From a virus, in the IMG/VR virus record IMGVR_UViG_3300048836_001222, positions 1 through 29,078 of that record: a stretch of DNA of 29,078 bases. One strand, given 5' to 3'. Positions 9,923 to 29,078 of this stretch are shown in pieces. Position 1 is the first letter of the stretch; the number at the start of each line of letters is the position of its first letter. Position numbers and translations under genes: made by a program. A model generated the notes under the pieces. The model did not search any database. It was not told where the DNA came from and saw only the letters and a program-made list of their open reading frames with translations.

Positions 9923-9925
9923 GAT

Positions 9926-9968: not shown

Positions 9969-10202
9969 CTAAGCCGGCGTGCCGGCTTGTGCTTTGACGA
10001 ACTTAGCACCGAGAAGGCCCGCGACTTGTTCGACGGATGCTTTGGCGGGGGCCGGTTTAGTTGTGACGCAGGGGTTGAAGTCGTCGGGCTTGAAGGGCTT
10101 GCGTCGGCGTTTGCGATCGCGATTGACTTCGGCGGTGATCCAGACGATCGTGCTTGCCAATTGCCAATCGTGTTGACGGCGGGCGTTTGCCATCCAGACC
10201 AT
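9969..10202 (-). CDS. Tail assembly chaperone-like protein, probable -1 frame product
   Basis: This ORF lies between the upstream chaperone-like gene and the tape measure. It encodes MVWMANARRQHDW, then TAEVNRDRKRRRKPFKPDDF. I recall a phage family with an L-T-L-R-Q/E-x-x-W-M-A core followed by a basic R-R-x-P-F-x-P-x-D-F stretch. Here the LTLRQ part is encoded upstream of the first ATG, in the same open frame, overlapping the end of the preceding gene in the -1 register (open from about 10441). The functional product is therefore probably a -1 frameshift extension of that gene, as in lambda G-GT. Independent start at ATG 10202, 12 nt after the upstream stop, is the alternative and gives 77 aa. 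I see no canonical X XXY YYZ heptamer. Confidence 0.65.
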   Translation of the reverse strand: MVWMANARRQHDWQLASTIVWITAEVNRDRKRRRKPFKPDDFNPCVTTKPAPAKASVEQVAGLLGAKFVKAQAGTPA

Positions 10203-10213
10203 TTGGCGGAGCG

Positions 10214-10714: not shown

Positions 10715-10786
10715 GGGGTTGCCGTTTACTTAGGAATATTGATTAAAATCTAAACTCGTCGGTCGCGGTGGTCTGTCCGAAGTCAA
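10715..10786. promoter_or_regulatory. AT-rich divergent intergenic region, possible promoter
   Basis: This short spacer separates the minus-strand chaperone-like gene from the plus-strand DUF4303 gene. It holds the only AT-rich run nearby (TTTACTTAGGAATATTGATT followed by AAAATC at about 10727-10750). A TTGCCG at 10723 with a TAAAAT-like box about 19 bases on could be a weak plus-strand sigma-70 promoter for the inserted gene. The match is poor. Confidence 0.25.
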
Positions 10787-10828
10787 ATGCACCCCGGCCG
10801 ACTTTCCTTGTTCGTTGAAAGGAAACAA

Positions 10829-11341
10829 TTGGACAACACCGAACTCTTAACGAAGCTCCAGAACGAATTAAGCAATGCGATTGCTTCGCACTACGCTGGC
10901 CTAACACGTGAATTCGATGACGTCTGTGGTTATGCAGTTTGTGCTCCAGCCACCTTCGAGCACGTGTTTCCTGCGTACCAGTTGAAATCGGAACTACGGG
11001 ACCGCCCAGCCGATTCATTGGGCCTCGCAACTTATTTCCCACCAGAGTGGAATTCGTTCGGCACTGTCTTCTTTACTGACGAGTTGAATTCGCTGGTGAC
11101 AGAAATCTCGAATCGCTTTTGGGGAGATGAGAGCCTCGAACCCAAAGTAGTTTATGAAGTGATATTGAAAGCAATGGTCGACCTTGAACGCGACGGCGTC
11201 TTCGGTCCACGATCGGACGATCGTTTTCTTTCAATTTGGGACATCGGTGGTGATGAATCAATGATCATTTCAACCTCCGAAGAATTAAATTCTGAAACCG
11301 TTCACTCGCGTGTGCTAGCAGCTTTTGGACGAGTCATATAG
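10829..11341 (+). CDS. DUF4303-family protein inserted against the operon
   Basis: This 170-aa protein resembles the DUF4303 family: a CGYAVCAP strand near the N-terminus, YFPPEWNSFG in the middle (family pattern near a conserved Trp), and then a long helix with LERDGVFG, SIWDIGGDES and STSEELNSE. Family members are uncharacterised; many sit in accessory islands. It is on the plus strand inside a minus-strand tail operon and is visibly more AT-rich than its neighbours, so I read it as a later insertion (a moron). The TTG start at 10829 has a good AAAGGAAA ribosome site about six bases upstream; an in-frame ATG at 10787 would add 14 residues but has no such site. It stops 13 bases before the end of the major tail protein gene, without damaging it. 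Confidence 0.75.
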   Translation: MDNTELLTKLQNELSNAIASHYAGLTREFDDVCGYAVCAPATFEHVFPAYQLKSELRDRPADSLGLATYFPPEWNSFGTVFFTDELNSLVTEISNRFWGDESLEPKVVYEVILKAMVDLERDGVFGPRSDDRFLSIWDIGGDESMIISTSEELNSETVHSRVLAAFGRVI

Positions 11342-11354
11342 GAGTCGAGGAAAC

Positions 11355-11771
11355 TTAAGTCCCACCACTGGCACCAACATTCATTCCACCACCGGTGGAT
11401 GATTGCGTCGGCTTCAGCGTCACGTCGGCCGAGACGACCTCTTCCAGGTTTTGGTTGACGTTGAAGTTCATCACTTCGCAGGTCAACGTCAGTGCTCCGC
11501 CGGCGTCGGAAATGCCGACGTCGCACGGCGTGCCGCTGCTCCACAGGCCTTGCAACATGCCGAACGATGTGTCGCCACTCTTGTTCAGAACGGTGAACTC
11601 GATCGAGGCGTCTTTGAGCGTGCCGACCGTCGCTCGCCAGCCGTTGTTGTCGCGCGTGCTCGCGTCCGCTTCAGCTTTCTCAAGCGACACGGTCAGGTCT
11701 TTGACATTTTTGATTTCGGCACCGTCAATGGTAAGGACGGCGTCGAGACCGAGGACTACTTCAGCGGACAT
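11355..11771 (-). CDS. Major tail (tube) protein
   Basis: This 138-aa protein is compact and beta-rich, as tail tube subunits are. It begins AEVVLGLDAVLTIDG and has LTVSLEKAEADASTRDNNGW, an element often seen in phage major tail proteins (the Val/Leu-x-Asp..R...W stretch). It ends in a flexible Ser/Gly tail. It lies between the gp10-like gene and the chaperone-like gene, matching the usual head-tail order: tail terminator, tube, chaperone, tape measure. No ribosome site stands out in front of the ATG. Confidence 0.82.
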   Translation of the reverse strand: MSAEVVLGLDAVLTIDGAEIKNVKDLTVSLEKAEADASTRDNNGWRATVGTLKDASIEFTVLNKSGDTSFGMLQGLWSSGTPCDVGISDAGGALTLTCEVMNFNVNQNLEEVVSADVTLKPTQSSTGGGMNVGASGGT

Positions 11772-11801
11772 ATTGGGTTGGATCCATCCTGCGTTATGAA
11801 A

Positions 11802-12356
11802 TTACTTGACGGAGTCCCGCCAGAATTTGGGGAGTTGGGCTCGATGGGTTTCGAGGGCCGGTTTCATGAACGGACGCTTGGGGTATCGCCGAGGCCTTTC
11901 GGCTCCGCGACGTTGGTTCTCTTCTTCGATCAGACGGCGGGCGCGGTTGGCTTGGGCGGCGGTTCGCAGTTCGATCCGAGCAAACTTGCCGGGGCCGATA
12001 ACGCGGATCGGTCCGTGCTGGCCGACTCGGAATCGATGCCTTTTTAGTTTGCGGCGTTTCTTGGCGATGCCGCCGAACTCGTGGAGGTTCCACAATCGGC
12101 CTGCGATCTCGTTAACGGGGCCGACGACGACGCCCGGTGTTCGTCGATCGACCTCGTAGCGGAATGATCGTCGCAGCCGGCCAGTCGGCGAACTCGGCGG
12201 GCTTCCGGGCCGCGACGGGTTCTTGCGTTTGCGGATGCTGCGATATGCCGTTTTGCGAATCGTACCGCCAGCGTGCCCGAGCGATTTGAACGACGCTTGG
12301 TCAGCCTTCTTCTTGACGCGAGCAGCATCGAGGCGGACTCGCGTCCGAATGTGCAT
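11802..12356 (-). CDS. HK97 gp10-like / phage virion morphogenesis protein
   Basis: This 184-aa strongly basic protein has many Arg and Lys residues. It has AGGTIRKTAYRSIRKRK near the N-terminus, then a Pro/Ser-rich loop with PTGRLRRSFRYEVD, then VVVGPVNEIAGRLWNLHEFGG, and ends RPFMKPALETHRAQLPKFW. The A-x-x-L-H-E-F-G-G and R-P-F-M-x-P-A-L elements are typical of gp10-like and virion-morphogenesis (minor tail/neck) proteins. I start at ATG 12356, which shares a base with the upstream stop (TGATG); a GTG one codon earlier is also possible. It follows the predicted tail terminator. Confidence 0.83.
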   Translation of the reverse strand: MHIRTRVRLDAARVKKKADQASFKSLGHAGGTIRKTAYRSIRKRKNPSRPGSPPSSPTGRLRRSFRYEVDRRTPGVVVGPVNEIAGRLWNLHEFGGIAKKRRKLKRHRFRVGQHGPIRVIGPGKFARIELRTAAQANRARRLIEEENQRRGAERPRRYPKRPFMKPALETHRAQLPKFWRDSVK

Positions 12357-12799
12357 CACTTGGCAAGTTCAAACGTGAGCGTCAGCAAGCTGGTGAACTG
12401 GTTGAACTGAGTCCAATGCTCGGTCGAGTACAACACTGCGTTCTCGACCTTGATGCAGCGGGCGGCGACGTACGAGTTGAGTCGTTTTAGCCGGAAGTAG
12501 TCGGCCAGTTCTTCGACGAACATCACCAGCGGGTCGATCTCTTTCGCGTCCCCCTTGGAGAACTTCTTTTGGATGGCGACGTCGATCGTGGCGTGGTACT
12601 TGTTGCTGACGCGATCGAGCGGCAAGTATTCGACTTCGCGAGGGACCACGGTGACCCGTAGTTCCTTCATGTCTTCAAGGTCGAAGTTGGGAACGTAAAG
12701 CCGCTGCGCCGAGAGACTCTTCTTGCTGAAGTCGCCGGCGTTGATCTCGGCCACGACGCTGTCGGCGATTTGGATGACGGTTGCAAGTGGGGCTGTCAT
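12356..12799 (-). CDS. Putative tail terminator / head-tail joining protein
   Basis: This 147-aa protein has no signal peptide or TM segment. It has an N-terminal helix (IQIADSVVAEINAGDF), a central strand LRVTVVPREVEYLPLDR, then a helix that reads VMFVEELADYF and a final strand with LLTLTFELAK. This layout (helix, V-x-V-x-P strand, long helix, Y-x-x-L-T-F strand) is like small tail terminator proteins in siphophages. The 3' end overlaps the gp10-like gene. The upstream flank (12801-12842) is repeat R2 and then the plus-strand four-helix-bundle gene, so the link to the connector gene upstream has been interrupted. Confidence 0.72.
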   Translation of the reverse strand: MTAPLATVIQIADSVVAEINAGDFSKKSLSAQRLYVPNFDLEDMKELRVTVVPREVEYLPLDRVSNKYHATIDVAIQKKFSKGDAKEIDPLVMFVEELADYFRLKRLNSYVAARCIKVENAVLYSTEHWTQFNQFTSLLTLTFELAK

Positions 12800-12800
12800 A

Positions 12801-12842
12801 AGGGAGTCTGGAGTCTTTAGACTGGAGTCCGGAGGAAGAAGA
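12801..12842. repeat. Dispersed repeat copy R2 (left flank of IVP gene)
   Basis: The stretch holds GGGAGTCTGGAGTCTTTAG followed by ACTGGAGTCCGGAGGAAGAA. Its GGAGTCCGGAGG (12825-12836) is the exact reverse complement of CCTCCGGACTCC at 13198-13209 on the other side of the four-helix-bundle gene. The GGAGGAAGAAG end also gives a strong ribosome site for that gene. Confidence 0.8.
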
Positions 12843-13196
12843 ATGAGAGATCACACAAAGCTGCGGGCGTTCGAGTTAGCCGATTCGCTGGCATTGATGA
12901 TTTACGAAATGACTCGCACGTTTCCGAAGGAAGAGCTGTTCGGTCTGACTTCGCAAATGCGACGAGCGGCCGTTTCTATTGCAAGCAACATTGTTGAAGG
13001 CTGTGCCAGGTCGTCGGAGACGGAGTTCATTCGCTTTCTTGAAATCGCGTATGGTTCCGCTCGGGAGTTGGAATATCAAGCGACTCTCGCAACCAGACTT
13101 GGATATCTTGAGAGCGAGAAAGCTGGCGAATTGGACCGCTGTAGCGTTGAAACATCAAAGGTCCTCAACGGCCTCATTCGTTCCCTCCGTCGCTGA
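12843..13196 (+). CDS. Four-helix bundle protein (23S rRNA-IVP family)
   Basis: This 117-aa protein is a typical member of the four-helix bundle/23S rRNA intervening-sequence protein family (PF05635-like). It has RDHTKLRAFELADSLALM at the start, then LTSQMRRAAVSIASNIVEGC, then RFLEIAYGSARELEYQATLA and a final VLNGLIRSLRR helix. The ATG at 12843 has a near-ideal GGAGGAAGAA ribosome site. It is the opposite way round to the late operon and flanked by inverted copies of the dispersed repeat (12801-12842 and 13199-13232). Related proteins include the accessory (Avd-type) proteins of diversity-generating retroelements, but there is no reverse transcriptase here. Its last 42 bases overlap the 3' end of the connector gene. 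Function is unknown. Confidence 0.9.
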   Translation: MRDHTKLRAFELADSLALMIYEMTRTFPKEELFGLTSQMRRAAVSIASNIVEGCARSSETEFIRFLEIAYGSARELEYQATLATRLGYLESEKAGELDRCSVETSKVLNGLIRSLRR

Positions 13197-13595
13197 AACC
13201 TCCGGACTCCCGACTACAGACTCCTGACTGACTAACTTGGTGTGGATGCGGAGTTTGATGCGAAACGGATCGCTGTATCGCCACGGCGGTTCGTTGCCGA
13301 TCGACATCAGCTCGTAAACAAAGGTGATCTCACCGTCGGTTTCGATGATGCGATCGCCGCGGCGGGGCCAGGTTCCGATGACGCTGCTGAGCAGGTCTTT
13401 CGTGTTGATCAGAAAGTCGCGAACTTGGGCGCGAGTGACGATGCCCTCGCCATCGTCTTGCTCATATTCGGACTTGCCGATCGTGGCGGGTAGCTCGACG
13501 GACAACTCGTCACGCTGGTAGGTGACCATGCGTGACGCGTGCTGGGTTAGCTTCTGAGAGAGCCACGCTTGACCACGCTGGAGCATGTCGCTCAC
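13155..13595 (-). CDS. Putative head-tail connector / stopper protein
   Basis: This 146-aa protein has the look of a small neck protein: a helical N-terminus (MLQRGQAWLSQKLTQHASRM), strand VTYQRDELSVELPATIGKSE, then RDFLINTKDLL and WPRRGDRI. The R-G-D-x-I element after a hydrophobic helix is common in head-tail stopper proteins. I start at the GTG at 13595, whose GTGA overlap matches the junction one gene upstream; ATG 13586 is the alternative. The last ~27 residues after RIHTK translate repeat R3 and the antisense of the inserted four-helix gene, so the original C-terminus was probably shorter. The gene is therefore intact but extended by an insertion. Confidence 0.72.
   Translation of the reverse strand: MSDMLQRGQAWLSQKLTQHASRMVTYQRDELSVELPATIGKSEYEQDDGEGIVTRAQVRDFLINTKDLLSSVIGTWPRRGDRIIETDGEITFVYELMSIGNEPPWRYSDPFRIKLRIHTKLVSQESVVGSPEVSATEGTNEAVEDL
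13199..13232. repeat. Dispersed repeat copy R3 (inverted, right flank of IVP gene)
   Basis: The sequence CCTCCGGACTCCCGACTACA followed by GACTCCTGACTGAC is the reverse complement type of R1/R2. It begins two bases after the four-helix-bundle stop, and it is read through as the extended tail of the connector gene on the minus strand. Confidence 0.78.
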
Positions 13596-13879
13596 GATTT
13601 GGTGGAGCGGGCGTTGGCGGCCTGCTTTGACTTCAACATCGAAGCCGCCTTCTCGCTCACCTCCTCGCGCCAAGCCTCGTCGCAACGACGTTGATATTCG
13701 CTGGCGATCGCCTCGGCTTCTTCATCGAGCTGTTGTTGGCGGGCGTTGACGGATCGCGTGTATCGGTCGACGATGTTTGGCTTGTTGGCGTCGCGGTCTC
13801 GTTGCCTTGCGGGTAGCAAAGCGATCGCGACGAGGACCAAGACGACGACGATTGCAGTTCCAAGAATCATAAGTTTCAC
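13592..13879 (-). CDS. Small N-terminal TM, coiled-coil protein (spanin-like?)
   Basis: This 95-aa protein has one TM helix near the N-terminus (ILGTAIVVVLVLVAIALL) and then a charged, helical tail: VNARQQQLDEEAEAIASEYQ, CDEAWREEVSEKAASML. An N-in TM followed by a periplasmic coiled coil is the plan of an inner-membrane spanin, but also of many other small membrane proteins. It starts at a GTG overlapping the stop of the two-TM thioredoxin-like gene (GTGA), and its stop overlaps the connector gene the same way. It forms part of a three-gene envelope block that sits between the capsid and neck genes. Role is inference. Confidence 0.65.
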   Translation of the reverse strand: MKLMILGTAIVVVLVLVAIALLPARQRDRDANKPNIVDRYTRSVNARQQQLDEEAEAIASEYQRRCDEAWREEVSEKAASMLKSKQAANARSTKS

Positions 13880-15111
13880 ATACCTCGCTTGATGAGAATG
13901 AATCCGAGCAGGATGCCGGAGACGACGATCAACGCGAGCGTCGCCAGTTCACCGGCGTTGGCCCAGATCAGTGCGTTCCGGCCGCCGGGGGTTCGGTCAA
14001 AGAGACGATCACGATTGCGGTCGCGATCACGGTCAAAGGGTCGCCACGTCGGTTCGTTGGGTTCGACCGGGCAGTAACCATCGGGACAATCTTCGGGGGC
14101 CAGTTGCAATGTCGGCGAAATTGCCGAGTCCCAGGAATAGCCGCGAGCTTTCAACGCTCCGGTCCGTTGGGCTTGTCGCGTTTGCTCGTGCAACTCGTAA
14201 CCGTGTTGAAGGTCGTCGAAGAGTTCTGCGGGGCTCGAAGGGAGCATCGCATGGCCGGCCGCGTGGATGTGTCCGCCGGTTGAGTCTTGAAACAGCACGA
14301 CGGGGAACTGGCTGGCTGGAACAATCGATTCAAAGCGAGTCCGATAGAGCTTGTTGTCTTCGGTGTAGACTTGGAACTCGCATTCGTCCTTGAGCTTTGA
14401 AAGCGACGGGTCTTTGGTGAACCACTCGATGAGCTGTTCGCTCTTCGCATCTTTGCCGACGAACAAGGCGATTTGGTATCGCTTGGGACCGGGATCCGGC
14501 GCGACGATCGGTTCGTCTTTGTTGAACGTCGGTTTGATGATGATCGGAGCGGGTGCGGTTGGTGTTGGCGTTGCCACGGGCGTAGTTGGTGCGGGCGCTG
14601 CGCCGACTGCGGGTTTGGTTGGCGTGGTTGGTTTAGCTGCCGCTGGTGCCGATGGTTTTGGTTCGGTGGGATAGGTAACTCGCGCTGGTGTCGGCTCGGT
14701 GGGGTACGTTACGCGTGTCGGGGCCGGTGTGGCCATCGGTTGCGGAGTCGGCTGGACGATCGGGATCGTCGGGACAACGCGATACGGCGTAAACGTGGGG
14801 CGTGTGACGCGGCGACAGGGCGGGCAATTGCTGCCGTACTGTTGCTTCAGTTCGCCTTGAGCCTCAAGGTTCACTTGTGTCGGTTCGGGCAGCTTCTCAA
14901 TTGATCGGCTGACTTGGGGAACGGGTGTGGCGGGAGGAACTTGCCACGTGGTGTCTTGCTGAGGCTCTGGGTTTCGATGCAGTGCGGTGAAGACCGCGCC
15001 GAGCATCACGGCGTGGAGTACAGCGACCACGATCAGTCCGACGCTAAGCCGGATCCGAATTTCATCCTTCATATTTTTCACGTTGCTCCATGCGTTGAGT
15101 AAAGATTGCAT
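13876..15111 (-). CDS. Two-TM protein with Pro-rich linker and thioredoxin-like domain
   Basis: This 411-aa protein has a TM helix at 22-44, then a CPPC motif (GSNCPPCRR), then a long Pro/Thr/Ala-rich linker with a repeated VTYPTEP unit, a thioredoxin-like domain and a final TM helix at about 389-408. The Trx-like part shows IALFVGKDA, a long helix, FQVYTEDN and ASQFPVVLFQDSTGG with a cis-Pro-like position. CPPC could be redox active, but it lies before the linker, not inside that domain. I chose ATG 15111, just after the previous stop (15137); ATG 15072 is also possible, and the 37 codons further upstream overlap the lipoprotein gene. It may anchor or couple an envelope complex. I do not recognise the family. 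Confidence 0.68.
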   Translation of the reverse strand: MQSLLNAWSNVKNMKDEIRIRLSVGLIVVAVLHAVMLGAVFTALHRNPEPQQDTTWQVPPATPVPQVSRSIEKLPEPTQVNLEAQGELKQQYGSNCPPCRRVTRPTFTPYRVVPTIPIVQPTPQPMATPAPTRVTYPTEPTPARVTYPTEPKPSAPAAAKPTTPTKPAVGAAPAPTTPVATPTPTAPAPIIIKPTFNKDEPIVAPDPGPKRYQIALFVGKDAKSEQLIEWFTKDPSLSKLKDECEFQVYTEDNKLYRTRFESIVPASQFPVVLFQDSTGGHIHAAGHAMLPSSPAELFDDLQHGYELHEQTRQAQRTGALKARGYSWDSAISPTLQLAPEDCPDGYCPVEPNEPTWRPFDRDRDRNRDRLFDRTPGGRNALIWANAGELATLALIVVSGILLGFILIKRGM

Positions 15112-15136
15112 TTGTTGGCGATTGGGTTGTGAGAGT

Positions 15137-15739
15137 TCATCGTGACTCGTCGACGATTTCGTAGCTGCGATAAGGGAGCGAGCTGGCCGGATCATTGAGG
15201 ACGGTGAGAGCGAATCCGCCATAGCCAGCCCAGAGACGCACGAACTGTTCGCGGGGCGTCAGTTCAAACCGGCCGGGATAGTTGTTGTCGAGGATCGCGG
15301 CGTATTGCTGGCCATCTCGCTCGACCCATCCGACGAAGGTGCAGCAATGGGCCGGCTTCCACCAAAGGATGGCGCCTCGTCGTGTTGCGTTTGCCCAGTC
15401 GAGGAACCGCGGATCGGCTTTGACCGTGTAGCTGTAATCGATGCCGGCTGCGTCGAGTCGGTCTCGCAGCCGCGTGTCCCATTCGCCGTCGCTGTAGGTC
15501 GCTCGCCAGCGTTCGCCGAGTTCAAACTCGTTGAGCCATCGGAAATGGTTGACCAGCGAAGCGTGAACGCAACTGCCTTGATTGAGCCGGCCAGTCCAAT
15601 TGCGTTGATGGAGCTGCGGCGGGAGATTCGCGATCGGTTGCTCAGGCGGCGGGGCCGGCAGCGGTCGGACTTGAACATCACGCTCCGGCAAACAACCGGT
15701 GCAGACGAGGAGGGCGCACGCGAAGATTAGATTTCGCAA
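15137..15739 (-). CDS. Predicted lipoprotein papain-like/C39-like cysteine protease
   Basis: This 200-aa protein has a short hydrophobic signal (LIFACALLVCTGC) with a lipobox-like VCTGC; the Cys is residue 16. The mature part reads like a papain-fold or C39-like peptidase: NQGSCVHASLVNHFRWL with Cys57, HCCTFVGW with His131, and ILDNNYPG with Asn152 or 153 completing a Cys-His-Asn set. It could cleave a virion or host envelope protein, or cut peptidoglycan cross-bridges. I start at the TTG at 15739, which has an AAGGA site seven bases before it; the frame goes on to 15808 but overlaps DUF2190. It leads a three-gene envelope-linked block. Confidence 0.75.
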   Translation of the reverse strand: MRNLIFACALLVCTGCLPERDVQVRPLPAPPPEQPIANLPPQLHQRNWTGRLNQGSCVHASLVNHFRWLNEFELGERWRATYSDGEWDTRLRDRLDAAGIDYSYTVKADPRFLDWANATRRGAILWWKPAHCCTFVGWVERDGQQYAAILDNNYPGRFELTPREQFVRLWAGYGGFALTVLNDPASSLPYRSYEIVDESR

Positions 15740-15788
15740 CTTGGCATCCTTGCGTGGGAGTCTTTGAAAGAAAGCGAGAGACGAGACG

Positions 15789-16139
15789 TTACTGCAGCAA
15801 CCGCACACGGATGGTCGGCGTGCTGGGCGGTGCGTCTTCGACGGAGATGCCGATCATCGAGTGGTCGTATTGGTTCTTGATCACGTGGTGGCTGATCTTG
15901 GACCAGTAGAGAATCGTGCCGGCGGGGATGTTGGTGGTTGGGTCTTTGACGATTTCAAAGACACCTTGAACGGTGATGCTGCCGCGGGCTCCGGCGGCGA
16001 TGCCGAACTTGGCGACACCGACGAGCCGGCCGAGGACGACCACGTCACCGGCGGCGATGTCAGTTTCAGGAACGAACGGGACCGTCACGCCCTCGTGGAC
16101 GTAGATCGCCCCGACGGGTGCGATGATTGGATTGCTCAC
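15789..16139 (-). CDS. DUF2190-family capsid protein, copy 2
   Basis: This 116-aa protein is a DUF2190 member, a family found next to major capsid genes and often proposed to decorate the head. It shows AIYVHEGVTVPFVPETDIAAG, then VVVLGRLVGVAKFGIAAG and GSITVQGVFEIVKD. It is a diverged paralogue of the next upstream gene: both have VVVLG/IVIQG, LVG, GSI-V-GVF and KD at the same positions. It begins at a GTG, ten bases after the other copy's stop. Confidence 0.85.
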   Translation of the reverse strand: MSNPIIAPVGAIYVHEGVTVPFVPETDIAAGDVVVLGRLVGVAKFGIAAGARGSITVQGVFEIVKDPTTNIPAGTILYWSKISHHVIKNQYDHSMIGISVEDAPPSTPTIRVRLLQ

Positions 16140-20205: not shown

Positions 20206-20403
20206 CTATCCAGCCGAAGGCGGCACGATCTTGTTGAAGCGAAGACCGCGATGCGGTTTCGCCACGGCCTTCTTGGCAGCGAGATGTTTGTCGGCCGCGA
20301 TTTGATCGGTCAGCTTGTGCTGCTCCACCGATCCCGCATCGCCAGACGCTTTAGCAGGTCCAGCGGCGTTCTCGCGAATCTGATCTTGAAGGTCTTCTGG
20401 CAT
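20206..20403 (-). CDS. Small phage protein, 65 aa (copy A)
   Basis: This 65-aa protein is charged and helical, with MPEDLQDQIRENAAGPAKAS, SVEQHKLTDQIAADKHLAAK and RGLRFNKIVPPSAG. Short proteins with Q-I-x-x-N-A-x-G-P-x-K-A and I-A-A-D-K-x-L sit between terminase and portal in many planctomycete and other phages, though I know no function (a head-tail or portal accessory protein is possible). A near-identical copy lies at 20559-20756, with few differences in 65 residues. Both copies keep intact frames. Confidence 0.78.
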   Translation of the reverse strand: MPEDLQDQIRENAAGPAKASGDAGSVEQHKLTDQIAADKHLAAKKAVAKPHRGLRFNKIVPPSAG

Positions 20404-20558: not shown

Positions 20559-20756
20559 TCAGCCAGCCGAAGGCGGCACAATCATGTTGAAGCGGAGTCC
20601 GCGATGCGGTTTCGCAACGGCCTTCTTTGCAGCGAGATGTTTGTCGGCCGCGATCTGATCGGTCAGCTTGTGCTGTTCAATCGACCCCGCATCACCGGAC
20701 GCCTTCGCAGGCCCCTCAGCGTTCTCGCGAATTTGGTCAACTAGATTGTCTGGCAT
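20559..20756 (-). CDS. Small phage protein, 65 aa (copy B, tandem duplicate)
   Basis: This is a second copy of the 65-aa gene, differing from copy A at about 7 positions (MPDNLVDQ for MPEDLQDQ, GSI for GSV, FNM for FNK and others). The two are 155 bp apart in the same orientation, and their flanking sequences are unrelated, so the duplication is limited to the gene. Copy B sits next to the decayed terminase end (20858-21115). It may have come in with that fragment from a related phage, or be a local duplicate. Confidence 0.78.
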   Translation of the reverse strand: MPDNLVDQIRENAEGPAKASGDAGSIEQHKLTDQIAADKHLAAKKAVAKPHRGLRFNMIVPPSAG

Positions 20757-21586: not shown

Positions 21587-22855
21587 CTAATTGGGAAAGG
21601 TTCGGAATTCCTTCCACGAAATCGTACCATCCTTGTTGGTGTCGAGATCGTCGAACGTGATGAGGTCGAATATTCCTGGGAACCAAAGGGTTGCGTAATG
21701 GGAAGCGGAGAAGGGGGGAAGCACTTTACCGGATTGGCCGGCACGGTACTCTTTCTCAATGGCATTCCACTCATCTTTCGAGATCGAGTTGTCGATCGTG
21801 AGATGGTCGATGAAGAGTAATGATGTGCTGCGCGGGCTAACGAGACGATACTCATTCCACGAAACACGATCATCTTGGTTTGCGTCCAGGCGAGAAAAGT
21901 AGCCGCGATCGGTTTCCAAACTCATTCTACCAATCCACTCTGTTCCTTTGACATCGTCGAAATGAATCTCGCCATCTTCGTCCTTGTCTAAGAATGCGAA
22001 CTCGCGAGCCGGATTTTCGCCGGTTTGCACGAATTCAAGAAATGAAAGTTCCAAGTCACCATTCAAGTCTCGAAGGCGAAATACTTTTTGCTCTAGAGTC
22101 AAGTATTCGTCGTCGCCACGTTTATGAGCTTCCGCCAGGAATTCGTTTCTCGTAATGGCTCCATTCGAATCAAGATCAGTCTGTACATACGACGCAATGG
22201 TGTCACCGCCCTCGTACGAGAAGGGTGGCAGCTTTTCATATAGCGAGAGGATTTCGTGGTAAGAGATGTTGCCATTCTCGTCGCGGTCGTACAAGGCGAA
22301 TTCGCTTTCAAGACGTTTTTGGGAGACCTTCACTTTCGGTTCAGCAGGCCTAACTTGCTCGCGTTCTGCTCTTTCTGATTTCACGTACTCTTGCCTCGTG
22401 ATCTTACCGTCGCCGTCGGCATCCCATCTGTGATAGTTAGAAAACGCTAATTGCGAGAACCCCAAGAATTCCTGGTGGAACGAAACCATCCCATCCGCAT
22501 TTCGGTCTAGTTGTGAAAACTCGGGATAGATTCTTCGCGACCGGTTGTTCATTGAGTAGAGCTGAGACACCATGTAGGCTTCGTACTTGAATTCCTTCGC
22601 GAGTCGTTCGGCTTTCTCGATTGCAGTCTGGGTATTCCGTTGGAACTCGGTTTCACTAATCTGTCCGTCGTTATTCGAATCCAAGAGAGCGAACTCTGAC
22701 TTCAAATAGGAGCTTCGTTTCGACGTGGACGGCATCGGTTCAATTGCACGCATGCCTTCCTGGGCGAATAGAACAGTGCCAGATGCAAGCAGCAACACAA
22801 CCGTATATGTAAGTTGGCAAGTAATGTGGAAATGCATTTGCCGGTCCAGAATCAT
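21587..22855 (-). CDS. Secreted multi-EF-hand calcium-binding protein
   Basis: This 422-aa protein has an N-terminal signal (VVLLLASGTVLFAQ, cut near residue 31) and at least nine EF-hand loops, among them DSNNDGQISE (59), DRNADGMVSF, DADGDGKITR, DRDENGNISY, DLDSNGAITR, DKDEDGEIHF, DANQDDRVSW and DTNKDGTISW (405). Loops have Asp at 1, 3 or 5 and Gly at 6. It is a secreted Ca2+-binding protein of a type abundant in planctomycete chromosomes. I start at ATG 22855; ATG 22837 is also possible, and 62 more codons upstream are open but look noncoding. It is more AT-rich than the phage genes, sits between the intact terminase and a terminase remnant, and is enclosed by a 16-bp inverted repeat. I infer host-derived cargo. 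Its function in the phage is unknown. Confidence 0.86.
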   Translation of the reverse strand: MILDRQMHFHITCQLTYTVVLLLASGTVLFAQEGMRAIEPMPSTSKRSSYLKSEFALLDSNNDGQISETEFQRNTQTAIEKAERLAKEFKYEAYMVSQLYSMNNRSRRIYPEFSQLDRNADGMVSFHQEFLGFSQLAFSNYHRWDADGDGKITRQEYVKSERAEREQVRPAEPKVKVSQKRLESEFALYDRDENGNISYHEILSLYEKLPPFSYEGGDTIASYVQTDLDSNGAITRNEFLAEAHKRGDDEYLTLEQKVFRLRDLNGDLELSFLEFVQTGENPAREFAFLDKDEDGEIHFDDVKGTEWIGRMSLETDRGYFSRLDANQDDRVSWNEYRLVSPRSTSLLFIDHLTIDNSISKDEWNAIEKEYRAGQSGKVLPPFSASHYATLWFPGIFDLITFDDLDTNKDGTISWKEFRTFPN

Positions 22856-23358
22856 GAGAAGTGTTTGCGCGAAGCGAATGCCAGAAAAGTAAGAAAAGCG
22901 ACCAAGTAGCCAGAATGGAGACGTCGGAAACGGTCGGAATGTTCCCATTGGAAAGAAAGAATTGACGAAGTCCGTCATGTCAGCAGTCGATGCTCCACCT
23001 CTCGTTGTCATGGAACTCACGACATGTCGTTTTCGTTTCAAGCATTTATGTTGGTGCCACCCACCTTATCGAAGCAATCTGGCAAATCGTGCCCCAACTA
23101 CCCTCAGTTGCATCGACCGAAAGCAGCTTCGAATTGGCGTTCGCGGCCGCAGCGCCAACCACCGACCGCAGCTTGTGGCCGAAGACCGCGCAGTCAATCT
23201 GATAACGCTTTGCAGTTTTCGCCAGGTTTCGTTCGTGCACAAGGTCGAACCGTCCTGTGCACCAAAAGCGGCCCCCGAATTGATGCTCCGGTGGCCGACG
23301 CCGGAAGCTTTGTCGATAGGCGTCGATAGGGGTGGGAGCAGACTTTCGGGCGGTAGAG
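22856..23358. other. Gene-free spacer between terminase and EF-hand gene
   Basis: About 500 bp without a supportable gene. It holds the right copy of the 16-bp inverted repeat (23284-23299) and a short tandem GTCGATAGG repeat (about 23312-23330). A 129-aa minus-strand frame is open from 23435 through much of it, but has no recognisable motif and starts inside the terminase gene. It is probably the upstream region, with any promoter, of the EF-hand gene. Confidence 0.55.
23284..23299. repeat. 16-bp inverted repeat, right copy
   Basis: TGCTCCGGTGGCCGAC is the exact reverse complement of the left copy at 21212-21227. Confidence 0.75.
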
Positions 23359-25626
23359 TTAGCTTCGTTTCTTGCGTTGGAGTTCTTTGAAGCTGACTCG
23401 CTCACGCTTTGGTGCAGATGGTCGGTCGGTTCCAAACAACAACGCTCCCTGCATCGACGCGGCGACGGCGGAGCCGACTAGGCAGTCGAGCCAGTGGTTG
23501 TCGGGTTGCTCGGGGCGGGCTTTCCATTCGTCGACGGTTCGGCCGCGGCCTTCGGTGCGGACGAAGTATTCGGCGGTGACTTGCTCGGCGAACATGCGGT
23601 GTTGGTCGGGGCGATCGCCGAAGATGGAGAGACAGCCCCGATCGCCCATTGAAACGGCGAGTCGCGCGTGCGTGAATGACTTCCACCAGTTGGTGTCGTA
23701 GATCACGTGGCGGATGGCGCGTTTGCCGTGGATCGTGGGGACTCGCCAGTTGAGTCCGACTCGGTCGCCCGGCCGGCGTTTGTATTCACTGAACGGGTTT
23801 GAAGACGCTCCTACGAAACGGCCGTGCGAAGGAAGCAAGATCGAAGCATGGGGGCTTTGCCGGCAGAATTGATAAACGACGTCGGTGGAGTGGCCCCAGT
23901 TGGCGTCGATCAAACAACGACCGATCTTCATTGCCGCTCCGTCGTCGCGCTGCCATTCGCGGCCGAGCAGTTGATCGGTCAAAGATTCAAGGCCGGCGTA
24001 GATGCTGCCTTCGAGTCCGGTTCCCTCGCTCGCGGTTGCAAGCGTGTGTCGCGCGTCGCGAAGGGTGAAGTACGTTCGCTGCTGATCTGGGTACGATCCG
24101 TAGTCGACGACGTAGCCTGTGAAATCGTCCTCCCAAGCGGCGACGACGTAGAATAGAAGTTTGCCTTGGACGTCGATGAACGCGGTGAGATGATTACCGG
24201 CAATGGGGACTCGGGCTCGCGGCATGTGGTTGATCTTGGCGGCGACTCGATCGGCGGTTAGTTGATCGGCACCGATGGTTTCTTCCGGCAGCGGTTCGTT
24301 TTGGTACTCGGCAAAGAAGGCGGCTTCGTCTTGAAGTTTAAGATTCATCGCATGTTGGATTGCCGATAGTTCGTCGTGGTTGAATCGTTCTTTCCACGAG
24401 ACATCCGCGCCGGCGTCCATCGCGGCTCGGTTCTGGCGATAGAACTCGGTGCCGGCCGCTCCGCCATCGCCGGCCCGCAATCCCTCGCTGCGGATTTCGG
24501 CGTAGCGATGCCACAACGTATCGTTGGTGGGAAACGCATTCATCATGCGCGTCCGTTCGCCGTTCCATTCGGGATGCAGGTCGCGATTGAGAATGTTGTC
24601 GGCCATGTCGCCGGGGCGGATGACGGTGCATGGCATGATGCCGGAGATCTTCTTGCCTGGGCCGGCGAGCCCGAGCACCGCGCCGGCGAGGATCGCTTCA
24701 CGGTTGGCGCACTGCGATAACGATCGAGCGGATTCATCGGTTTGCGGGTCGTCCAATACGACGAGCGATGGTCGCACGGTCTTGCCATCGGGTCGTTTGA
24801 ATTTCATGCCTCGGATGCGTCCAGTCAGGCCGGCGACCTTGATGATCGCGCCGCTTGCTTTGCTGCCGGCAATCGTGGGCAAGACGATTTCTTTCGCAGT
24901 CCAACCGATCTGCGTTCGCTTGCCTTGATAGAGCTGCCCGTTGGCGCGGTTGGAGATGCCGTCCAACGCTTGGATCGGAAAGCAGACTTCGGGATAGTCG
25001 GCCAGCAGCAATTCGTTGGCATCGAGTTCGGTCTTGATCGAATCGAGCATGTCGCAGGCGTGACCTTCGTCGCTGCCGATCAAACAAACGAAGTCGCGAT
25101 AGCCATTCAACACTGCCCAAATGCACGCGACCTCCGCGAGCGAGCTCTTCCCCGATCCGCGCGCCATCGCTAGCGAGAATAAGCCGCCACGAACGACCGC
25201 TTCCTCGATCTTGCGAATGACTTTGATGTGGTCCGGCGACCAGGAGAGATGAAACGTGAGGCCGAAATACACTTCGCAAAAGAACTGAAAGCTACCGGCG
25301 GCTCTGGCTTTTCGTTCGATGTCATCGACTTCCGGCAACTCACCGATGTCTCGACCGGCGAGCGCAACGGCGGCGTTTCGCGCGCGGGCTTTCTCTTTGA
25401 CCTTAGCGTAGGGGTCTTCATCGACCGGCGGCTTCGGTGCATGTCGCTTCTCGATCAACCACGCGGTGAACTTCAATAGGTCAACGTGGGTGCCGTCTCC
25501 GATGCGAAGGCCCGCCTCGGTTCGGTAGCGATAGAGTTGCCGTTCGTTGAGCACGGTGCCGAGCGGCGTGCTGTTGACGGTCCGGCAGATCTGGCTCGGC
25601 TTCATCCGTTGAATATCAATCGCCAC
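23359..25626 (-). CDS. Terminase large subunit (GpA-like)
   Basis: This 755-aa protein is the packaging ATPase/nuclease. It has Walker A ARGSGKSS (155-162), Walker B LVVLDD (288-293) with a following PQTDE, then FIDVQ at 483-487, the first RuvC-like nuclease acidic site, and a later DANWGHSTDVV. The order fits the GpA-like terminase family. The N-terminal ~100 residues are an extra region: QLYRYRTEAGLRIGDGTHVD and FTAWLIEKRH resemble the end of the 68-aa gene just upstream. I start at GTG 25626, which overlaps the upstream stop by 11 bp; ATG 25605 is the next choice. It is the second gene of the late operon. An older partial copy of its 3' end lies at 20858. Confidence 0.92.
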   Translation of the reverse strand: MAIDIQRMKPSQICRTVNSTPLGTVLNERQLYRYRTEAGLRIGDGTHVDLLKFTAWLIEKRHAPKPPVDEDPYAKVKEKARARNAAVALAGRDIGELPEVDDIERKARAAGSFQFFCEVYFGLTFHLSWSPDHIKVIRKIEEAVVRGGLFSLAMARGSGKSSLAEVACIWAVLNGYRDFVCLIGSDEGHACDMLDSIKTELDANELLLADYPEVCFPIQALDGISNRANGQLYQGKRTQIGWTAKEIVLPTIAGSKASGAIIKVAGLTGRIRGMKFKRPDGKTVRPSLVVLDDPQTDESARSLSQCANREAILAGAVLGLAGPGKKISGIMPCTVIRPGDMADNILNRDLHPEWNGERTRMMNAFPTNDTLWHRYAEIRSEGLRAGDGGAAGTEFYRQNRAAMDAGADVSWKERFNHDELSAIQHAMNLKLQDEAAFFAEYQNEPLPEETIGADQLTADRVAAKINHMPRARVPIAGNHLTAFIDVQGKLLFYVVAAWEDDFTGYVVDYGSYPDQQRTYFTLRDARHTLATASEGTGLEGSIYAGLESLTDQLLGREWQRDDGAAMKIGRCLIDANWGHSTDVVYQFCRQSPHASILLPSHGRFVGASSNPFSEYKRRPGDRVGLNWRVPTIHGKRAIRHVIYDTNWWKSFTHARLAVSMGDRGCLSIFGDRPDQHRMFAEQVTAEYFVRTEGRGRTVDEWKARPEQPDNHWLDCLVGSAVAASMQGALLFGTDRPSAPKRERVSFKELQRKKRS

Positions 25627-25822
25627 GGTGTTTCTCCTGCAATAGCCAAGCGGCGTAATGGACAAGGTTGATCGTTCCGTCGGCGTTGGTCGGTGCGCCG
25701 TCGGCGAGATCTTGCGAAATCTGCTCGTCCGGCACGATCTGCCGATACGAACTCGTCAGAAGTTTGGCCAATTGCTCGACCGTCAAACGGTTCGGGTTAA
25801 CGCTTCTTGATTCGCCTGCCAT
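25616..25822 (-). CDS. Small terminase-associated protein (possible small subunit)
   Basis: This 68-aa protein is the first gene of the minus-strand operon. It starts at ATG 25822 with a GGAGG site about ten bases upstream; the frame continues to 25978 but that part is unlikely to be coding. Residues 47-66 (NADGTINLVHYAAWLLQEKH) resemble the terminase N-terminus (GDGTHVDLLKFTAWLIEKRH), so both share a short helical domain. Position and overlap with the terminase gene suggest a DNA-recognition or small-terminase role; this is inference. Confidence 0.72.
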   Translation of the reverse strand: MAGESRSVNPNRLTVEQLAKLLTSSYRQIVPDEQISQDLADGAPTNADGTINLVHYAAWLLQEKHRGD

Positions 25823-25917: not shown

Positions 25918-26081
25918 GTTTCACTCGGCGAAACAGGGGCAAACGTGGCCGCGTGTGGGGGTCAAAAGAAAGCTGCAAAATTCCTGAACATTACTGCCAG
26001 ACTTCGCTTGAGGTGTCTCGAAACGCATGGCTCATGTGTGTCAACGAAACGAATTCAAAACCCTTTTTCGGAGACACAAAC
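25918..26081 (+). promoter_or_regulatory. Conserved leader, copy 1 (before the amidoligase)
   Basis: This ~164-bp stretch aligns with three others (27061, 27876, 28419). Conserved parts in order: a CGACACGG/GCACGTCG-like block (here CGAAACAGGGGC), an AAGAAA-rich block, GCTTGAG, then CGCATGGCTCATGTGTGTCA (here 26024-26043), and GGAGACACAAAC just before the gene ATG. Copy 1 is the most diverged. Two overlapping ATGs occur at 26027 and 26034; the second is in frame with the gene at 48 nt. Confidence 0.8.
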
Positions 26082-26939
26082 ATGCACGCCAACGACATCG
26101 CCTTCGGTATCGAAATCGAAACCCACATGCCCGGCCACGACCGTACACCGATCGGCGGCTACCACAACGGATTGCCGGTCGCTTGGCTGCCGGCCGGATG
26201 GAAGGCCGAACGCGACGGCAGCATCCGCACGCCGATGGGACGCAAACCCTGCGAGTTCGTATCGCCGATCCTTCGCGGGTACGAAGGGCTGCGAAACGTA
26301 GAGACCGCGGTCGACGCGATCAAAGAGCGCGGGGCGCGGATCAACGAATCCTGCGGCCTGCACATCACCATTTCTTGGAACGGCGATGCGGCCGCCTTGG
26401 CCCGGTTGATTTCCTTGATCGCCAACCACGAGAAGGCGATCTACGCAGCGACCGGCACCCGACGACGCGAACGAAACCAATGGGCGAAGCAAATCAAGAC
26501 CTACGGCAACAAGGACGCGGCGAAGATGCGATGCGAAAGCGACCGCTACCACCTTTTGAACCTGACGCACTTGGCCCGCGGCAAGAACCGAATCGAGATT
26601 CGGGCCTTCGCCGGGACACTCAACAAAACCAAACTGATCGGCTACATCCAAATGATCCTCGGCTTGGCCGAACTCGCCCTCAACACCAAACGCTGCTCGG
26701 GTTGGGACTACGCCAAGAAGCCCGGAACCAAATCTTGCTGGGACCGCCCCGAAGCGGGCCACGGTGAAACGGAACTCAACCGGCTTTTCTACCGACTCGG
26801 ATGGACGAAGGGTTGGTACAAGGGCGACCTTCGCGACAAACGGTTCGGCGAACTGACCAACGGCGAAACCGGATGCGACTTCCGGCCGGTCAAAAAGAAA
26901 CTTCTCGACCTGGCCCGCAAGTACGACGCGGCGATTTGA
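26082..26939 (+). CDS. Amidoligase (COOH-NH2 ligase) family enzyme
   Basis: This 285-aa protein belongs to the Amidoligase_2 (GCS/GS-like) group, ATP-dependent enzymes that join a carboxylate to an amine to make peptide-like bonds. Seen here: FGIEIETHMP at 8-17 with the metal-binding Glu pair, EFVSPIL at 58-64, CGLHITISW at 91-99 and RIEIRAFAGTLN at 170-181. Family motifs for ATP/Mg are thus all present, so it is likely active. ATG 26082 has a GGAGA site; the in-frame ATG at 26034 would add 16 residues. The gene is divergent to the late operon and the first of four genes with the same leader. Substrate is unknown; amidoligases of phages and plasmids are thought to modify proteins or make peptides. 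Hairpin terminator follows. Confidence 0.87.
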   Translation: MHANDIAFGIEIETHMPGHDRTPIGGYHNGLPVAWLPAGWKAERDGSIRTPMGRKPCEFVSPILRGYEGLRNVETAVDAIKERGARINESCGLHITISWNGDAAALARLISLIANHEKAIYAATGTRRRERNQWAKQIKTYGNKDAAKMRCESDRYHLLNLTHLARGKNRIEIRAFAGTLNKTKLIGYIQMILGLAELALNTKRCSGWDYAKKPGTKSCWDRPEAGHGETELNRLFYRLGWTKGWYKGDLRDKRFGELTNGETGCDFRPVKKKLLDLARKYDAAI

Positions 26940-26962
26940 TCGCCGGCGGCTTGCCGCTTTGA

Positions 26963-26999
26963 AAACGCCGCGGATGGCCCCGCGGCGTTTCTTCGTTTT
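26963..26999 (+). terminator. Rho-independent terminator after the amidoligase
   Basis: A perfect 11-bp stem AAACGCCGCGG/CCGCGGCGTTT (26963-26973 and 26980-26990) with loop ATGGCC is followed by CTTCGTTTTG. It shares GCGGCGTTTCTT with the hairpins at 27814 and 28360. Confidence 0.88.
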
Positions 27000-27060
27000 G
27001 TCGGCGGCCGGCGGGCAACGTCGCGGGCAAACGGCATAAGTAATAGGTAGGGGCCGACAT

Positions 27061-27227
27061 CTTTGATGGACGCGACACGGGGCGTTTGTGCGGCACGTCG
27101 GGCATCTCAAAAAACATGGAAAAACCATGCGAATTCGTGCCGGGATCGGCTTGAGCTTCTTTGAAACGCATGGCTCATGTGTGTCATCGCAAGACGGTTT
27201 TTCATTCACCCAAACGGAGAGACAAAC
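27061..27227 (+). promoter_or_regulatory. Conserved leader, copy 2
   Basis: Starts 62 bases after the amidoligase terminator. It has CGACACGG...GGCACGTCGGG (27073-27102), AAAAAACATG, GGCTTGAGCTTCTTTG (about 27148-27163), CGCATGGCTCATGTGTGTCA (27167-27186), and CGGAGAGACAAAC before the gene ATG. The ATG at 27177 is in frame with the gene at 51 nt. Confidence 0.83.
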
Positions 27228-27497
27228 ATGACCCTCGGACAACTGATTTCGCTTTTGGAAGAGTACCGCGACGAACACGGCGAAGACTGCGAGGTGCGGT
27301 TGATGACGCAGCAGAACTGGCCCTTTGAAAACCACATCGCCGGTGTGACCAGCGGCGCGGAGATGAACGAAGGCGACGACGAGGACGAGGACTACGACGA
27401 CCAAGACGTCGCCGAGGACGCGATGGTCTACATCGTCGAAGGCGGGCAGATCTGCTACGGCAGCAAACGGGCTTGGGAAACCTGCCGCGATTGCTAA
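27228..27497 (+). CDS. Small acidic protein of unknown function
   Basis: This 89-aa protein starts LGQLISLLEEYRDEHGEDCE, a pattern (LGQLI..L......E) I know from short proteins of phages and plasmids without assigned function. It continues LMTQQNWPFENHIAGV, then a strongly acidic stretch (EGDDEDEDYDDQDVAED) and ends AMVYIVEGGQICYG and a Cys-rich tail. The acidic run suggests a DNA mimic or a target of an amidoligase, but nothing shows this. ATG 27228 has a GGAGA site. An upstream in-frame ATG at 27177 would add 17 residues. Confidence 0.8.
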   Translation: MTLGQLISLLEEYRDEHGEDCEVRLMTQQNWPFENHIAGVTSGAEMNEGDDEDEDYDDQDVAEDAMVYIVEGGQICYGSKRAWETCRDC

Positions 27498-27510
27498 CCG
27501 CGAACCATTC

Positions 27511-27550
27511 GGCCGGCGGCGCGACGAGCGCCGCCGGCCTTCTGTATTTT
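27511..27550 (+). terminator. Strong hairpin terminator
   Basis: Perfect 12-bp stem GGCCGGCGGCGC/GCGCCGCCGGCC (27511-27522 and 27528-27539), loop GACGA, then TTCTGTATTTT. It closes the acidic-protein gene. Confidence 0.88.
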
Positions 27551-27572
27551 CAAATCCAACGGAATTCAAAAC

Positions 27573-27788
27573 ATGACCAATCGAGATTCGATCGAACACG
27601 CATACACTGCGGCGCACATTCGGGCGCTGACCCTTCTTGAAAACTTGCACCAACGGATCGAGGACATGCCGGCACCCAGCGACGACGGGCCGGCGATCGG
27701 ATGGGATGACGTCGGTACGCTTCGCCACCTTTGCGCCCGCTTGGAAGAACTGATGGAACCGAACGAACCGGACGACGACGGATCGTAA
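27573..27788 (+). CDS. Small helical protein of unknown function
   Basis: This 71-aa protein reads MTNRDSIEHAYTAAHIRALT, LENLHQRIEDMPAPSDDGPA and ends LEELMEPNEPDDDG. It is mostly helical and acidic at the end. It is the only gene of this block without the conserved leader; just 22 bases separate it from the terminator before it, with AACGGAATTCAAAAC in front of the ATG. It is therefore probably expressed by read-through or a weak own promoter. No named family recognised. Confidence 0.66.
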   Translation: MTNRDSIEHAYTAAHIRALTLLENLHQRIEDMPAPSDDGPAIGWDDVGTLRHLCARLEELMEPNEPDDDGS

Positions 27789-27813
27789 ACAGCGAATATC
27801 GAAGAGCCCGCAA

Positions 27814-27850
27814 CACGCCGCAACGTTGGCCCGACGCCGCGGCGTTTCTT
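27814..27850 (+). terminator. Terminator-like hairpin of the GCGGCGTTTCTT family
   Basis: ACGCCGC (27814-27820) pairs with GCGGCGT (27839-27845), followed by TTCTTTC. Its right arm sequence matches those at 26984 and 28384. Confidence 0.7.
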
Positions 27851-27875
27851 TCAGTGCGGCTGGTTTATCGAAGCT

Positions 27876-28031
27876 CTTTCCTGACGCGACACGGCGGCAC
27901 GTCGGGGCCAACAAGAAACATGCAAAAAGACTGGGAATTACTGCCGGAACTAGCTTGAGCTTGTTGGAAACCCATGGCTCATGTGTGTCACCGAAACGAT
28001 TTTCATTCCTTCCGCAAACGGAGACACAACT
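27876..28031 (+). promoter_or_regulatory. Conserved leader, copy 3
   Basis: The shortest copy, 156 bp. It has CGACACGGCGGCACGTCGGG (27887-27906), AAGAAACATGCAAAAAG, GAATTACTGCCGGAACTAGC, TTGAGCTTG, CCATGGCTCATGTGTGTCA and GGAGACACAACT. The ATG at 27981 is in frame with the gene at 51 nt. The first block lacks the ~12-bp inside piece of copies 2 and 4. Confidence 0.83.
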
Positions 28032-28331
28032 ATGGCCAATGAGACCGCAACCCAAAACCCCGAGACCGCCATCCGCGCCGAGTTGGCAAAACTCGAATGG
28101 ATGATTCCCGACGCCAAACGCGACCTCGCGAAGGCCGCCGCGAAGATGGCCGACCGAGCGATCAGCGCGGTCAAGGAATGCGAGGCGATGATTGCCGGCG
28201 AACCCTGCTCGATGGGTTGGACCGAGTTCGCCGAACAAGATGCCCGCCGCGCTAACGAAGCCAAGGCACGGCTGACCGCCTTGTTTGAACGCCGCCAATT
28301 GCTGCAGTACCTGATCGGCGAAAACGATTGA
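28032..28331 (+). CDS. Small helical protein of unknown function
   Basis: This 99-aa protein is an Ala/Lys/Glu-rich helical hairpin type: MANETATQNPETAIRAELAK, LEWMIPDAKRDLAKAAAKMA, VKECEAMIAGEPC and LTALFERRQLLQYLIGEN. No TM helix, signal or named domain is visible. Leader copy 3 directly precedes it and a GCGGCGTTTCTT hairpin follows. The upstream in-frame ATG would add 17 residues. Confidence 0.78.
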   Translation: MANETATQNPETAIRAELAKLEWMIPDAKRDLAKAAAKMADRAISAVKECEAMIAGEPCSMGWTEFAEQDARRANEAKARLTALFERRQLLQYLIGEND

Positions 28332-28359
28332 CCGCCGGCGAACCCACCCCTTCGCCGAC

Positions 28360-28396
28360 ACGCCGCGACGTTCGCCCAACGCCGCGGCGTTTCTTT
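28360..28396 (+). terminator. Terminator-like hairpin of the GCGGCGTTTCTT family
   Basis: ACGCCGC (28360-28366) pairs with GCGGCGT (28384-28390), with an inner GCGA-CGT-TCGC hairpin, then TTCTTTGTCT. It is near identical to the hairpin at 27814. Confidence 0.72.
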
Positions 28397-28418
28397 GTCT
28401 GGGCATCATTCGCCGGTC

Positions 28419-28586
28419 CTTTCGACTAGCGCGACACGGGCCGTTTCCGGGCCACGTCGGGCGTTCCGAGAAACATGAAAAATCATTGCAAATTGCTGCC
28501 GGAATTGGCTTGAGCTTCTTTGGAACGCATGGCTCATGTGTGTCATCGCAAGACGATTTTCTAACCCTTCCAACACGGAGCAAAAC
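28419..28586 (+). promoter_or_regulatory. Conserved leader, copy 4
   Basis: Has CGACACGGGCC (28432-28442), GGGCCACGTCGGGC (28449-28462), GAGAAACATGAAAAATC, GGCTTGAGCTTCTTTGGAAC and CGCATGGCTCATGTGTGTCA (28526-28545), then ACGGAGCAAAAC before the gene. The short frame at 28529 (Met-Ala-His-Val-Cys-His-Arg) ends after 11 codons at 28564 in this copy. The ATG at 28536 is in frame with the gene at 51 nt. Confidence 0.83.
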
Positions 28587-29078
28587 ATGCCCAGCAACGA
28601 AGCCCGATCCACCTGCACAACAACCCTGCCGTCCATCTTTGAGAAACTGGAAACGTTGGCACCGAACGACGCACGCGATATTCGAATTGCCTTCGAGGCC
28701 GTTTGGGAAAACTTCTACCATTTGGCCGATTGCCTCCAAAGCGCGGCGTCTCGCTTTCGAGGCGAGGAACGCCGATTGTTGACCGCCGAATTCGAGCGAA
28801 CGGAGGAGGCGATGGGTGCGATGGCAAAGAGCCGGTTGAAGGCCATCATGCCTGACGCACCGAACGGCGAGTCGCAAGCGGACGACGGTTCGCCGGCACT
28901 CGAATGCCTTGTGTATGAGACCCAAAAACTTCTAGAGACCCTGACTTCGGAAGTCGACGAATTGGAGCTAATCGAACCTGGTGACATCGAAACGGCCGCT
29001 ATCAACCGCGAGGCTTTAAAAGAGTTACACGACACGATTCTGGCCGCGTCGAAAAGATTCAACAGCTACGTCCGATAG
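28587..29078 (+). CDS. Helical protein of unknown function
   Basis: This 163-aa protein is rich in helix-forming residues: PSIFEKLETLAPNDARDIRI, FEAVWENFYHLADCLQSAAS, RRLLTAEFERTEEAMGAMAK, and a C-terminal acidic part with LTSEVDELELIEPGDIET. No family recognised. It has leader copy 4 and begins at ATG 28587 after a GGAG site. Its TAG is the last three bases of the window, so its terminator is not seen. Confidence 0.78.
   Translation: MPSNEARSTCTTTLPSIFEKLETLAPNDARDIRIAFEAVWENFYHLADCLQSAASRFRGEERRLLTAEFERTEEAMGAMAKSRLKAIMPDAPNGESQADDGSPALECLVYETQKLLETLTSEVDELELIEPGDIETAAINREALKELHDTILAASKRFNSYVR

Follow-up and report, generated by a model that had tools for sequence, protein, structure and literature searches.

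The small-gene block at the end of a temperate-phage contig carries a previously undescribed start signal that stands before several small accessory genes and is, judged from its sequence, probably a transcription promoter. The stretch analyzed here (the window) is the complete IMG/VR record IMGVR_UViG_3300048836_001222, a linear phage fragment of 29,078 nt. We consider it fairly likely that each copy of the element is a self-contained phage promoter followed by an unstructured 5′ UTR, and that it drives one accessory gene or a short operon. An earlier note on this DNA had described the repeats as a common control region that could be a promoter, an RNA leader or a translation element; a phage control region is retained here, and the list of functions is narrowed towards a DNA promoter.

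Four element copies in the window

The minus strand of the window encodes terminase, lambda-type portal, capsid and tape-measure proteins. The element block is on the opposite (plus) strand and diverges from the terminase genes, which also form the left border of the block in mapped relatives. Alignment of the four copies confirms the ordered blocks reported in the note, namely GCTTGAG, the 20-mer CGCATGGCTCATGTGTGTCA and a GGAG Shine-Dalgarno sequence before an ATG, with a single mismatch in the 20-mer of copy 3 (which reads CCCATGG...). As the note states, copies 2 and 4 resemble each other most (79% over 163 nt), and the four copies do precede four unrelated small genes at the contig end. 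The cores start at 26026, 27169, 27973 and 28528, and the true start codons behind them are at 26082, 27228, 28032 and 28587 (Table 1; gene calls are from a home-made codon model). Spacing predicts a transcription start for copy 1 at A26043. A search of the window at three mismatches returned exactly four sites, all on the plus strand, and the reversed pattern returned none. The earlier description needs one correction, as a fifth small gene, gene 2b, has no copy of its own in the window; its relative in Aporhodopirellula (Rhodopirellula) rubra has one.

Table 1. Features of the window from the terminase genes to the end of the contig
Feature	Position	Strand	Remarks
Terminase genes (large subunit and small gene TERS68)	23359–25822	-	GpA_nuclease 1e-25
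TERS68, small terminase gene	25616–25822	-	
Element copy 1: phased A-tracts, GCTTGA at 26006, core CATGGCTCATGTGTGTCA at 26026–26043	25966–26043	+	
Predicted 5′ UTR of copy 1 with Shine-Dalgarno GGAG	26044–26081	+	no conserved RNA structure
Gene 1, 285 aa, putative amidoligase	26082–26939	+	Pfam Amidoligase_2 5.1e-20; PHROG 2443 5.7e-31
Terminator-like hairpin 3′ of gene 1	26963–26990	+	consensus scan only
Element copy 2: GCTTGA at 27149, core at 27169–27186	27109–27186	+	
Gene 2, 89 aa, family P91, no known function	27228–27497	+	own element in 25/25 records
Terminator-like hairpin 3′ of gene 2	27511–27539	+	consensus scan only
Gene 2b, 71 aa, without element in the window, Shine-Dalgarno remnant kept	27573–27788	+	
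Repeated GC-rich hairpin followed by TTTCTTT, 3′ of gene 2b	27813–27851	+	direct repeat D4
Element copy 3: GCTTGA at 27953, core at 27973–27990	27913–27990	+	one mismatch in 20-mer
Gene 3, 99 aa, no known family	28032–28331	+	
Terminator-like repeat 3′ of gene 3	28358–28396	+	repeat and consensus scan
Element copy 4: GCTTGA at 28508, core at 28528–28545	28468–28545	+	
Gene 4, 163 aa, no known family	28587–29078	+	stop codon is the record's last codon

Anatomy of the element

A profile was built on 274 distinct copies, 113 of them less than 85% identical. In its upstream half, A-rich patches lie at about −57, −47, −36, −26, −15 and −5 from the core C, and among the 113 copies below 85% identity the A content is periodic at 10.5 bp over −62 to −3 (matched by 0 of 2000 column permutations), indicating a property of the DNA helix. 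GCTTG[A/C] at −20 from the core C is followed by 15 bp and then by the core, which is almost invariant from 0 to +15 (CATGGCTCATGTGTG, then T) and continues with Y and A at +16 and +17. The profile was seeded with the 18-mer, so this invariance is partly ascertained; positions 14–17 nevertheless vary under the same rule. Past +17, only a Shine-Dalgarno sequence recurs. The core forms an imperfect dyad, GAAACGCATG-GCT-CATGTGTGTC, and some copies have one extra base between CATGGCT and CATGTG, with the genes behind them intact.

Across 28 mapped records, 153 sites score far above all other positions, and in 147 of these the next gene start lies 53–116 nt from the core start (median 60). The profile shows an upstream and a downstream box at a fixed, slightly flexible spacing, and the position of the transcript start is a prediction. 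The few weaker sites are variant copies within the element block, and no weak copies were found before terminase or replication operons in the 28 records. Terminator-like hairpins occur upstream of 47% of the sites vs. 11% of random windows. The note had suggested a search for covarying stems; RNAalifold on the 113 diverse copies gave an energy of 0 and no common fold in any stretch tested, and Rfam contained no match.

Distribution in planctomycete phages and prophages

The earlier note held that a lack of hits in other genomes would reduce the element to a simple local duplication. That outcome is strongly contradicted by the 274 distinct copies, which come from planctomycete phages and prophages, and local tandem duplication is ruled out by the many genomes concerned and by the relationships of the copies (below). 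The exact 18-mer was found in 59 stretches of IMG/VR contigs, usually several times per contig, and a 20-base bipartite pattern in 44 stretches of GTDB genomes, all titled as planctomycetes; together these exclude chance, although some single 18-mer matches in IMG/VR that lack the rest of the element (e.g., L015 and L054) are chance matches. Two named hosts among the GTDB matches were looked up, and both are Pirellulaceae. With up to three mismatches allowed, 57 of the 241 genomes of Pirellulaceae contain the element; the reversed control pattern gave one match each in only four. No match was found in INPHARED phages or PLSDB plasmids and a search of Rfam returned chance matches only, in agreement with the note's statement that it knew of no described element with such a sequence.

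The genomic copies cluster in prophages and share a single direction within each cluster; seemingly dispersed copies mostly belong to other prophages or to remnants, which carry the same small genes. Serine integrases are present, and CI-like and ImmA-like genes lie nearby in some phages, indicating that the phages are temperate.

Genes behind the element and evolution of the copies

Thirteen gene families lie behind the copies. The gene types of the block (a putative amidoligase, HARE-HTH, DUF4314 and many orphans) suggest accessory genes that resemble host-takeover or lysogenic-conversion genes. Of the 153 copies, 125 are most closely related to the copy in front of the orthologous gene in a different phage, and only 3 to a copy within the same phage. 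The copies therefore track orthologous genes and evolve in place, which makes them old, and core invariance is accordingly kept by selection rather than by recent duplication. The same relationships reject integron-like cassettes with recombination sites. Of the exchangeable cassettes proposed earlier, the variable gene content remains (13 families); free exchange is not supported, given the conserved gene order of the block between phages, the element before P91 in all 25 records and the 125 of 153 orthologous pairings.

The number of elements per block varies. A single canonical element precedes the whole block, as one apparent operon, in the D083 prophage (L232, offsets about 6620–8350), unlike other Pirellulaceae phages with one element per gene.

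A second core class

In related phages from outside Pirellulaceae, the A-tracts and GCTTG (one base off in some leaders) are retained, and a different core, CGAGGTAACTG, follows at identical spacing. These prophages of other Planctomycetia were found through the sigma profile described below, and the class is described from 14 aligned copies, several of them near-duplicates. At three mismatches its pattern matched at chance level, with similar counts in controls, and only matches with up to two mismatches were counted as real. The leader is present once in these prophages, and the order of terminase, a block with HARE-HTH, methyltransferase, replication genes and sigma gene is kept. Constant A-tracts and GCTTG with a different core at the same spacing indicate that the element consists of separable modules, of which the −10 half has been swapped.

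For the most part, core type tracks host lineage, the exception being a second-core element inside a Pirellulaceae genome: one second-core unit, which has a sigma-like gene of its own and lacks clear A-tracts, lies inside a prophage whose own block uses the canonical core. Two core types under a constant upstream half, both in one genome, amount to a natural experiment on the reader of the −10 half. A small mobile unit inserted into the structural region of a prophage (L231, G083:C1:4827001-4847000, offsets about 8150–16100) comprises a serine recombinase, a capsid-like protein, HARE-HTH and a sigma-like gene, with the second core before the HARE-HTH gene.

Promoter reading and its alternatives

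Helical phasing, the lack of RNA structure, the one-base insertions, the fixed direction and the frequent upstream terminators together favor an element that acts as DNA, with a promoter as the most probable kind. RNA polymerase would bind the element: the A-tracts would serve as an upstream region that is UP-like or bent, GCTTG would form the −35 side and CATGGCTCATGTGTG an unusual −10 side, and the transcript would begin close to the conserved A of core +17, some 40 nt ahead of the ATG. In our own reading the spacing would fit TTGNTG, 17 bp, a hexamer, 6 bp and YA. The one-base insertions are tolerated, as would be expected between contact modules of a polymerase. Phages with one such promoter would run the block as an operon, and in many Pirellulaceae phages the promoter would have been multiplied to about one per gene. 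Several points count against the promoter reading. The core is not recognizable as a sigma-70 −10 box, and a promoter consensus scan of the region called none, CATGGCTCATGTGTG not being close to TATAAT; fifteen nearly invariant bases are much for a −10 region; and the imperfect dyad could mark an operator. By eye, a sigma-54 site (TGGC-N-TGC) was rejected since the GC of the −12 box is missing, and an RpoH-like CTTGA/CCCCAT site since its spacing is off by 3–4 bases.

As the core is not TATAAT, an alternative sigma factor or an activator is probably needed. We slightly favor a host-encoded factor as the reader, since core type mostly follows host lineage with one exception; the phage's own sigma is the main alternative. 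With somewhat less than even confidence, we propose a non-TATAAT promoter class specific to planctomycete phages that has a polymerase-associated reader (the candidates being an alternative sigma of the host and an activator conserved in the phages), a constant upstream half and a −10 half swapped between bacterial lineages, and that has been multiplied to about one copy per accessory gene.

It appears unlikely that the elements are instead promoters for the ECF-like sigma that the phages encode, which would then activate the accessory block as a single regulon. The sigma gene lies beside AAA/P77 genes in 20 of 21 full records, its product matches Pfam Sigma70_r2 above gathering, and sigma factors or transcription complexes make up its listed fold matches. 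Sigma profile and element occur together in 46 genomes (57 with the element and 65 with the sigma, of 241; Fisher p = 1e-23, kinship ignored), and R. rubra has four sigma genes near four element clusters; such co-occurrence is, however, expected for any two genes of one phage. The sigmas of canonical-core phages are on average only 28% identical and those of other-core phages are no more distant, while in region 2.3–2.4 the value is 75% for D083 (canonical) vs. Z282 (other core) and averages 27% among canonical-core phages. The DNA-binding regions of the sigma do not change with core type, making it an unlikely sole reader of the core. A little less probable still is a core that serves as a regulator binding site, operator or activator, common to all units, with the promoter proper elsewhere in the leader. 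The imperfect dyad would suit such a site, the block encodes a DNA-binding HARE-HTH protein in all 21 full records and in most of the distant prophages, and some phages have a CI-like HTH repressor. However, one-base insertions between the half sites occur in copies with intact genes behind them, the roughly 30 nt from core to Shine-Dalgarno sequence leave little room for another promoter, and the HARE-HTH sequences do not divide by core type. Neither HARE-HTH nor the methyltransferase was retained as the core determinant, no separating residues being found in their shared domains.

Readings at the RNA or peptide level fare worse. A riboregulator, antiterminator or translation element that acts within the 5′ UTR would explain why the start codon follows at a fairly even distance (median 60 nt) and why a Shine-Dalgarno sequence lies behind all copies, but it is improbable: no stretch tested gave a consensus fold, Rfam had no match, and a 10.5-bp helical phasing is meaningless in RNA. 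The ATG inside the invariant core would allow a short leader peptide starting ATGGCTCATGTG (MAHVC), to which we give almost no credence and which we reject on the frameshifts caused by the one-base insertions and on the CGAGGTAACTG class, which has no ATG at that position; moreover, its codons are invariant without any wobble-position change, and no Shine-Dalgarno sequence precedes the core ATG.

Comparison with known systems

ECF and other alternative-sigma promoters consist of two boxes at fixed spacing with high stringency, a constant upstream box and a changeable −10 half. The present element shares the two boxes, their fixed spacing, the high stringency and the constant and changeable halves, but its boxes are not GGAAC/GTC and the phage's ECF-like sigma does not follow core type. 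The lambdoid put and nut antitermination leaders likewise recur in phages ahead of early genes, but they are RNA elements with structure or boxes, and none were seen in the present leader. SPO1-type early (host-takeover) promoters are TATAAT-type host sigma-A promoters in lytic phages. Modules of this type resemble the block described here in having small function-unassigned genes, one or few per own promoter and terminator, and differ in that our phages are temperate and the core is unlike TATAAT. Among SPO1-type early genes, gp49 is under an early promoter (PMC10531801).

The Start-Associated Sequences (SAS) and extended SAS (ESAS) of cluster K mycobacteriophages are a further point of comparison; SAS are 13 bp long, overlap the Shine-Dalgarno sequence 3–7 bp before the start codon and have a proposed role in translation, and ESAS are 17-bp inverted repeats (PMC3203893). 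Both SAS and the present element are short, phage-confined repeats, mostly in one orientation, before many unrelated small non-structural genes; both are tied to the same gene families in related phages, and for both the role is a proposed one. The present element differs in lying about 60 bp upstream, in being bipartite with phased A-tracts, and in looking transcriptional. Its core, at a median of 60 nt before the start, excludes identity with SAS.

Our literature searches found no paper on promoters of planctomycete phages, and the phylum has few genetic tools. If the promoter reading is true, a stringent, compact promoter with hundreds of natural copies could serve as an expression tool and would help to establish which planctomycete sigma factor is used for the element. 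The element also flags a block of small, function-unassigned phage accessory genes for study.

Other features of the window and related prophages

Two near-identical 65-aa genes (MPxxLxDQIRENAxGPAKASGDAGS) lie close together in the window at 20206–20403 and 20559–20756, where mapped related phages mostly have one. A 463-aa protein with many EF-hand repeats is encoded at 21587–22978, between the phage terminase and portal genes. In the SV_7m_r prophage (L117/L118, G002:C1 about 6590940–6595290), three consecutive recombinase-like genes (413, 323 and 336 aa), which resemble a recombinase-in-trio element, interrupt the amidoligase gene. In the L246/L247 prophage (G199:C1:103001-163000, offsets about 30000–41000), the block, methyltransferase and terminase are replaced by an operon resembling CRISPR-Cas type I genes (a 1058-aa helicase/nuclease-like protein and its neighbors), and the phage sigma is kept.
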